Of a stretch of DNA of 64,000 nt, positions 44,993 to 46,469 are shown in pieces (the first letter of the stretch is position 1; every line of letters starts with the position of its first letter). The position numbers and the translations under genes were made by a program. The stretch covers positions 150,910 through 214,909 of the forward strand of contig NZ_HG964497.1 of assembly GCF_000613125.1 (NCBI RefSeq), given 5' to 3'. Source of the DNA: Bacillus sp. EB01. Its GTDB lineage: Bacteria; Bacillota; Bacilli; Bacillales; Cytobacillaceae. The notes beneath the pieces were generated by a model that saw only the letters and a program-made list of their open reading frames with translations, ran no database searches and had not been told where the DNA came from.

Positions 44993-45022
44993 TTGAAAGT
45001 TGCTAAATCAGATACATATAAT
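44993..45022 (+). promoter_or_regulatory. probable sigma-A promoter of the selenoprotein gene
   Basis: TTGAAA, 18 bp, TATAAT on the plus strand, 39 bases before the ATG. This argues that the downstream interrupted frame is a live gene. Confidence 0.65.
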
Positions 45023-45060
45023 TATTAGTAGATTCAGAATATTTTTCAGGAGTGAGGTAA

Positions 45061-45297
45061 ATGGAAATTCGTATTGAATATTGTACTGCTTGAGGCAATT
45101 TACCAAAAGCCGTCGGTCTGGCGGATGAATTGTTAAATGAATTTAAAAATAATGCCAATAAGTTGGAATTGGTCCCAAGCACTGGAGGCGTGTTTGAGGT
45201 ATCCGTGGACGGCCAGAACATTTTCTCTAAAAAGGAAACAGGCCGTTTCCCAGAAGAGGGCGAAGTGCTGAACATTGTAAAAGAAAAGCACCAATAA
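45061..45297 (+). CDS. selenoprotein of the SelW/Rdx family (TGA read as selenocysteine)
   Basis: A 78-codon frame from ATG to TAA is interrupted once, by TGA at codon 11 (45091-45093). Reading it as selenocysteine gives EYCTAUGN, the CxxU redox motif (Cys8, Sec11) of SelW/SelT/Rdx thioredoxin-like proteins. The rest matches the family: LADELLNEF helix, LELVPSTGGVFEVSVDGQ, IFSKKETGRFPE. Length is normal for bacterial Rdx proteins. A ribosome site AGGAGTGAGG and a promoter precede it, a hairpin suited to a bacterial SECIS follows the TGA, and a terminator closes the unit. The protein is probably a small cytoplasmic redox protein. The alternative, a nonsense mutation at exactly the redox position, is less likely. 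Confidence 0.85.
45096..45132 (+). promoter_or_regulatory. candidate bacterial SECIS element
   Basis: Just after the TGA, CAAUU (45096-45100) pairs with AAUUG (45128-45132), and CCGUC (45110-45114) pairs with GGCGG (45120-45124) around the loop GGUCU. The apical loop starts 21 bases after the UGA and has the same GGUCU bases as the SelB-binding loop of E. coli fdhF, known from that system. Position and loop fit SelB-dependent recoding. Confidence 0.7.
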
Positions 45298-45311
45298 TCC
45301 ATTATGATACA

Positions 45312-45345
45312 AAAGGACAGCAGCGTGAATAAGCTGCTGTCCTTT
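45312..45345. terminator. bidirectional terminator
   Basis: AAAGGACAGCAGC pairs perfectly with GCTGCTGTCCTTT around an eight-base loop. It separates the selenoprotein gene (plus) from the convergent cysteine desulfurase (minus). Confidence 0.92.
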
Positions 45346-45350
45346 CTGCT

Positions 45351-46469
45351 TTAATTTATAGCCTCCTTTAACCAAAGAAGGACCTGATCAATCTCATCCT
45401 TTGTCGTCTGACTTCCTAAACTAAAGCGAATTGCCCCCATTCCAACCTCTTCCGGAATAGCCATATCTTTTAAAACCGGCGATAATTCAATGCTGCCAGC
45501 ATGGCAGGCCGAGCCTGTCGAGGCGGCTAACTGAGGAATTTCGGAAAGCAAATCCTGCCCAATTCTCTTCACAAAACTTACATTCAATGTGTTAGGCAGC
45601 CGCTCTTCCGGATGCCCATTTAATTGAACGAGATCCCCAAACTGTTGCTTTAACCTCTCCCAAAAATAATCCGTCAGTTCCTTAAGAGCCCTATTACCAA
45701 CATGGTTTTCAGCAATTTCACATGCTTTGCCAAGCCCGACTGCCAATAAGGTATTTTCCGTTCCGGCCCGGAGCCCTGATTCATGCCCAGCCCCGTGAAT
45801 CAATGGTTCCAGCTCAATTCCTTTTCTCTTGTATAGCGCACCACTTCCTTTAGGTGCATAAAGTTTATGGCCTGCGATTGTCAGCATATCGACTTTTAAC
45901 TCATTGACATTAACAGGTACTTTACCGACTGACTGAGAAGCATCCGTATGAAAGGCGATTCCATGTCTTTCAGCTATGTTCCCAATCTCTTGAATCGGCT
46001 GCAAAGTGCCTGTTTCATTGTTGGAATGCATGATTGATATCAAAATAGTTTCTTTTGTAATGGCTTTTTCAATTTCCTCCGGTGACACTCTCCCGTATTG
46101 ATTTACACCTACATAAGTAACCTTCGCCCCTATTGACTCAAGGAATTTACATGGATTCATCACCGCGGGGTGTTCAATTTTCGACGTAATGATATGGTTG
46201 CCTCTGCTCTTATTTTTAAAGAAGAAGCCCTTTAGCGCCAGGTTATTCGCTTCACTCCCTCCGCTCGTAAAAATGATTTCCTCAGGAACACAGCCAAGTA
46301 AGCCGGCAACTTGTTCTCTTGCTTTTTGCATAAAGCCCTTAACCGGTGCCCCAGCCCAATGCAGTGCGGACGAATTTCCATAAAAATCTCGGAGTAACGG
46401 TGTCATTGCCTCAATGACTTCAGGTGCCACAGGTGTGCTTGCGTTGTAGTCTAAATAAATGTGATCCAT
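45351..46469 (-). CDS. cysteine desulfurase (NifS/IscS-like)
   Basis: 372 residues of the class V PLP aminotransferase family. It starts IYLDYNASTPV, has the PLP-binding Lys202 (AGHKLYAPKG) and a mobile-loop Cys322 (TGSACHAGSIELSPVL), with RAGTEN before it. It removes sulfur (or selenium) from cysteine/selenocysteine as an enzyme-bound persulfide or selenide. It converges on the selenoprotein gene and shares its terminator. NifS-like proteins are frequent in selenium loci, so a selenium-supply role is possible, but a general Fe-S or thio-tRNA role is equally allowed by the sequence. Confidence 0.93.
   Translation of the reverse strand: MDHIYLDYNASTPVAPEVIEAMTPLLRDFYGNSSALHWAGAPVKGFMQKAREQVAGLLGCVPEEIIFTSGGSEANNLALKGFFFKNKSRGNHIITSKIEHPAVMNPCKFLESIGAKVTYVGVNQYGRVSPEEIEKAITKETILISIMHSNNETGTLQPIQEIGNIAERHGIAFHTDASQSVGKVPVNVNELKVDMLTIAGHKLYAPKGSGALYKRKGIELEPLIHGAGHESGLRAGTENTLLAVGLGKACEIAENHVGNRALKELTDYFWERLKQQFGDLVQLNGHPEERLPNTLNVSFVKRIGQDLLSEIPQLAASTGSACHAGSIELSPVLKDMAIPEEVGMGAIRFSLGSQTTKDEIDQVLLWLKEAIN

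Follow-up and report, generated by a model that had tools for sequence, protein, structure and literature searches.

A stretch of 64,000 nucleotides from Bacillus sp. EB01 (hereafter the window; positions 150910-214909 of one 5,282,259-base contig in the genome labelled G000) contains a short reading frame that is interrupted by a single TGA. The question raised by this locus is whether that TGA is a stop codon, leaving a peptide of ten residues, or whether it is decoded as selenocysteine (Sec) in a full-length protein of the SelW/Rdx family. We put the probability at roughly 96% that the gene, here called selW2, is a second, free-standing SelW-like selenoprotein gene whose UGA is decoded as Sec by means of a SECIS hairpin.

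In the excerpts of the literature that were available, SelW-like bacterial selenoproteins, with a CxxU motif and a place in Pfam family PF10262, are listed in a 2026 review as predicted with high confidence (PMC13188914). A 2005 study of the Sargasso Sea selenoproteome (PMC1088965) uses the term "SelW-like". A 2006 study counted 10 SelW-like selenoproteins, described Cys homologues of the family as very scarce or absent in organisms that contain Sec, and tabulated just three Bacillales selenoproteins, from three families (PMC1794560). Bacillales are mentioned in connection with the selenouridine trait by a 2016 survey that covered more than 5,200 organisms (PMC5029168), and terms for SelW and Bacill- are absent from the available part of PMC12013277. 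Within a search that left subscription journals mostly outside, neither a two-copy SelW nor a selW-selA tie in this order was found described. With the known SelW-like bacterial selenoproteins selW2 shares the Rdx family, an N-terminal CxxU, an in-frame TGA and a SECIS element; it differs from them in its YCTAU subtype and in lying away from selA.

Reading frame and family identity

The frame of selW2 opens with an ATG at 45061, runs for ten sense codons including the ATG, and after the TGA continues for 67 codons to a TAA at 45295-45297, with no second in-frame TGA across its 78 codons (Table 1). These coordinates agree exactly with the original prediction, according to which normal translation halts after ten codons while the same frame extends for 67 more. 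A run of 67 open codons has a chance of about 0.04 at the stop-codon frequency of the window and is unremarkable by itself; what counts as evidence is that homology extends to either side of the TGA.

Translated with Sec at the TGA, the protein scores 87.5 bits (7e-25; cut-off 22.6) against PF10262 (Rdx), over residues 2-74 of 78 and profile positions 1-73 of 74. It also exceeds the cut-offs of two NCBIfam models, NF041051 (97.4 versus 88 bits) and TIGR02174, the SelT/SelW/SelH family (68.6 versus 34.2 bits). The assignment to the SelW/Rdx family with a CxxU motif is upheld. The motif reads C8-T-A-U11 and lies near the N terminus, with the TGA at the redox position after Cys-Thr-Ala, as had been proposed. 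Eight distinct solved chains are matched at E values up to 0.1, including Selenoprotein W (2npb). The two alignments printed, those of 3dex and 2fa8, both place a Cys opposite the TGA, which is the residue that the original prediction suggested looking for at position 11 of homologues. A mechanically called ORF of 99 amino acids (45003-45302, minus strand) overlaps selW2.

Table 1. Predicted features of the selW2 locus, in window positions.
Feature	Position	Strand	Evidence
Sigma-70-type promoter-like site, TTGAAA-18-TATAAT	44993..45022	+	11/12 matches; consensus match only
AGGAG ribosome binding site, 8 nt upstream of the ATG	45048..45052	+	Kept in G021 and G023
selW2, predicted 78-residue SelW/Rdx selenoprotein with CTAU motif and TAA stop	45061..45297	+	Frame, profile matches, changes downstream of the TGA biased to third positions
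In-frame TGA, predicted selenocysteine U11	45091..45093	+	Cys in solved homologues 3dex and 2fa8; TGA kept in G021, G023 and G065
Bacterial SECIS hairpin CCGUC-GGUCU-GGCGG, loop 45115-45119	45110..45124	+	5/5 pairs; family-wide pairing
13-bp hairpin separating selW2 from the desulfurase gene convergent with it; possibly a terminator for both	45312..45345	.	Folding; compensatory change in G021

Genes of the same subtype occur in at least three other genomes, with 99% (G021), 96% (G023) and 66% (G065) identity. Over 65 codons after the TGA, all six changes relative to G021 and eight of the ten relative to G023 fall at third positions. The corresponding NG86 estimates of dN/dS are 0/0.156 and 0.013/0.217, and 0.278/1.67 against the G065 copy; the 65 codons after the TGA evolve under protein constraint. 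Across the aligned loci of G000, G021 and G023, changes are few round the TGA and the hairpin and become more numerous further on.

These comparisons bear on whether the TGA could be a true stop, created by decay of a SelW gene or by a sequencing error at a Cys codon. Standard translation does end there, and the genome has another SelW gene, so that selW2 could be a spare. However, the same TGA is present in all three related genomes, the codons that follow it are constrained as protein, and the ribosome binding site and promoter-like site are intact, which makes a true stop highly improbable.

The original prediction also had the unit framed by a promoter, a ribosome site and a terminator. 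The ribosome binding site holds. The promoter stands as a promoter-like site, a consensus match of a kind that is over-frequent in this stretch of the window (7 versus 1.4 expected); its hexamers are kept in G021 and G023, where the spacer is 17. The terminator is borne out in part: the 3' hairpin is strong (-23.4 kcal/mol, z -5.9) and shows a compensatory C-G to T-A change in G021, but its T tail is poor and a terminator scan of the window reported none at this position.

Selenocysteine machinery of the genome

Decoding of the TGA as Sec implied that selA, selB, selC and selD lie elsewhere in the genome, a point that had been set out beforehand as decisive. All four were found, each above its cut-off: selA at 1136197-1137582 (572 bits, cut-off 267.9), selB at 3311990-3313849 (358.6 bits, cut-off 242.25), selC, a tRNA-Sec, at 253677-253769 (65.2 bits, Rfam cut-off 47) and selD at 1138168-1139094 (399.5 bits, cut-off 125). 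In 14 control genomes the same cut-offs were exceeded by one for selA, two for selB, five for tRNA-Sec and two for selD. Since the tRNA-Sec cut-off is also passed by those five controls, the selC call leans on ARAGORN, which reports a tRNA-SeC with anticodon tca.

The genome contains further genes that appear to use Sec. selD is itself of the Sec type, with one in-frame TGA in the motif AGUGCK. A formate dehydrogenase alpha gene (4509241-4511262) scores above its cut-off and has a TGA within RTUHAP; a related gene at 563673-566480, with a TGA within RIUHSS, matches the formate dehydrogenase family piecewise, each piece below the cut-off. In both of these formate-dehydrogenase-type genes the in-frame TGA stands at a U-H motif and is followed by a hairpin whose GGTCT loop lies 18 nt past it. 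Together with selW2 and a second SelW gene, the predicted Sec genes number five among the families searched.

A conserved SECIS hairpin follows the TGA

A SECIS hairpin, 21 nt past the TGA of selW2, went unnoticed in the original prediction; it spans 15 nt, with a 5-bp stem and a GGUCU loop. It was compared, at a fixed distance from the TGA, across SelW genes mostly of the family and order, with a few from metagenome-assembled genomes (MAGs) of other phyla. In 159 distinct TGA-type stretches, related sequences being counted separately, 792 of 795 base-pair cells are standard pairs, and 156 of the stretches form all five pairs. The stem shows compensatory changes: in two of the pairs T-A or T-G replaces C-G, and the innermost one is variously G-C, A-T, C-G or T-G.

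This degree of pairing exceeds that expected from the coding sequence. Synonymous re-draws (200, following the codon usage of these genes) gave a mean of 3.83 pairs and a highest value of 3.97, versus 4.98 observed. Sliding the 3' side by 1-3 nt lowered the paired share from 0.996 to 0.21-0.59. When the whole hairpin was slid, 0.71 and 0.60 of the cells were still paired at shifts of 6 and 12 nt, indicating that this G+C-rich coding stretch pairs readily, and 0.17-0.42 were paired at six other shifts in the range of 3 to 12 nt. Taken alone, the selW2 hairpin is unexceptional, with 5/5 pairs arising in 14% of synonymous re-draws and folding z values of -1.2 and -0.5; its weight comes from conservation across the family. 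The four Cys-type stretches, the first from G031 of the window's family and the other three from Chloroflexota MAGs, pair at 3, 1, 2 and 2 of the five positions.

The bacterial SECIS model quoted in the 2026 review has an apical loop of 3-9 nt, an upper stem of 4-16 bp, a G in the first two loop positions, a distance of 16-37 nt from the UGA and a minimum free energy of -7.5 kcal/mol or below (PMC13188914). The selW2 hairpin lies within the loop and stem limits (a 5-nt loop and 5 bp in a 33-nt fold; 4 bp and a 6-nt loop in a 50-nt fold), and within those for the loop G (GGUCU) and distance (21 nt). Its energy is -11.9 kcal/mol over the 50 nt from the TGA, inside the limit, and just -6.8 kcal/mol for the shorter 33-nt stretch round the hairpin.

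Read-through of a TGA can occur without a SECIS element, and a suppressor tRNA or insertion of Trp could in principle carry translation past codon 11 without Sec. Against this, the Sec genes are present in the genome, the two aligned solved homologues have Cys rather than Trp, a SECIS hairpin follows the TGA, and SelW tracks SelA across genomes. We consider read-through of this kind the least probable of the readings discussed here.

Selenocysteine decoding, by comparison, is favoured on several counts. The match is full-length through the TGA, homologues have Cys at that position, the TGA is kept and third-position bias follows it; selA, selB, selC and selD are all present, the SECIS element is conserved with compensatory changes, and SelW is never seen without SelA in the family and order genomes compared by hand; the Cys-type gene of G031 forms three of the five pairs, and the formate-dehydrogenase-type genes share the GGTCT loop. 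Given the established pathway, Sec is very probably inserted in the selW2 product. Codon 11 of the mRNA would be decoded by SelB carrying the Sec-tRNA encoded by selC, guided by the downstream hairpin and its GGUCU loop, with SelA making Sec on the tRNA from selenophosphate supplied by SelD. By analogy with the Rdx family, this small CxxU protein would most likely serve as a thiol or peroxide redox protein in which Cys8 and Sec11 are reversibly joined as a selenenylsulfide.

Two SelW copies

The original prediction overlooked that selW2 is the second SelW gene of its genome. The other copy, also of the Sec type, lies between selA and selD at 1137732-1137950 of the same contig (G000:C1), and selW2 is its paralogue. 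This standard SelW (FCMMUNYAPKAA) has the family, TGA position and SECIS hairpin distance in common with selW2 and is 45% identical to it; whereas the standard gene adjoins selA and selD, selW2 (YCTAU) stands alone.

Among the family-genome matches listed, two SelW genes are present only in G000, G021 and G023. The YCTAU subtype occurs in at least four family genomes, these three and G065, where it is the sole SelW and lies at 84,557, versus 5,396,966 for selA, on a 5.61 Mb contig. Next by identity, at 59%, is a gene from a Myxococcota MAG. The SelW-like genes of Myxococcota and Binatota MAGs resemble selW2 in being of the Sec type, in their motif MEIRIEYCAAUG and in 55 to 59% identity, and differ in belonging to other phyla and in having GYEP after the Sec where selW2 has GNLP. 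When 84,980 species genomes were scanned with the selW2 protein, a search that reaches close relatives only, eight loci were returned: one in Bacillus sp. FJAT-27225 (the G023 gene, counted once), four Sec-type genes from MAGs and three genes of the Cys type from Chloroflexota MAGs.

A tree of 44 chosen rows over 78 columns was weakly resolved, with 17 of 41 inner branches open and bootstrap unsettled. In it standard SelW forms a 34-row clade (support 92/99) that includes neither the selW2 clade nor the G065 gene; these two do not group together, and the partner of the G065 gene is a very long branch. On this tree of 78 columns the selW2 subtype may have arisen either by an old duplication or by transfer. 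What is new here is modest: a second, free-standing SelW subtype of a known family.

The neighbouring cysteine desulfurase

A gene for a NifS-like cysteine desulfurase (45351-46469) is the convergent neighbour of selW2 in G000, G021 and G023, raising the possibility that the two proteins work together in selenium handling. The pairing looked specific when 10 genomes were compared, copies of at least 84% identity being found only in G021, G023 and G065. It was rejected as a partnership since 80 of the 193 family genomes have a desulfurase match at E <= 1e-120, while four are known with the window SelW subtype. The two genes are also far apart in G065 (4,852,275 and 84,557), and the protein passes no NCBIfam cut-off among the best 25 of its 35 matches, falling far below that of the selenocysteine lyase SclA (126.6 versus 525 bits). 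A joint role is therefore very unlikely. The G021 desulfurase is split over two overlapping frames (L091, 4206-5451) and may be broken.

SelW and SelA across the family and order

The original prediction held selenoproteins to be rare in this lineage. They are not: SelA is found above its cut-off in 172 of 193 family genomes and in 181 of 397 genomes drawn evenly from the order. SelW is present in 160 of the family genomes. By hand comparison of the listings, 160 have both genes, 12 have SelA only, 21 have neither and none has SelW only, with 13 of the SelW-less genomes identified by elimination (Fisher p 6e-20, relatedness ignored). In the order draw, a SelW matching the selW2 protein at 1e-5 is present in 165 genomes, and hand comparison places all of them among the 181 with SelA; the two draws overlap, 16 of the 165 belonging to the window's family. 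Every SelW among the order matches listed has one in-frame TGA, as does every SelW among the family matches listed except that of G031. SelW lies within 1.5 kb of selA at 25 of the 30 best-scoring selA loci, a non-random sample. The evidence is clear that SelW of the Sec type is common across the order and linked to SelA.

In G031, SelW has a TGT (Cys) codon, selA is still present and the SECIS stem retains three of five pairs. This is probably a natural change from Sec to Cys, the direction being suggested by the place of the gene among Sec-type genes in the tree. The 12 family genomes with SelA and no SelW match are G003, G005, G006, G007, G008, G011, G016, G027, G049, G064, G086 and G098; other selenoproteins probably maintain the Sec trait in them.

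Implications

SelA accompanies every SelW seen here, the two genes often adjoin, and Cys-type SelW is nearly absent. From this it might be argued that in this order SelW is a dedicated companion of the Sec pathway rather than a redox protein of general function that merely contains Sec. We regard this as unlikely, though less so than the alternatives weighed above. Were it correct, SelW could take part in selenium handling or shield selenophosphate or the synthesis of Sec, and selW2 would be a second version that has left the vicinity of selA and can be regulated separately.

The locus is a clear case of a gene cut to ten codons by ordinary ORF calling, and it belongs to an order of which a large part has Sec-decoding genes. 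With SelW tied so strictly to SelA, and with the Cys-type gene of G031, these bacteria offer a simple system in which to ask why SelW stays selenium-dependent.
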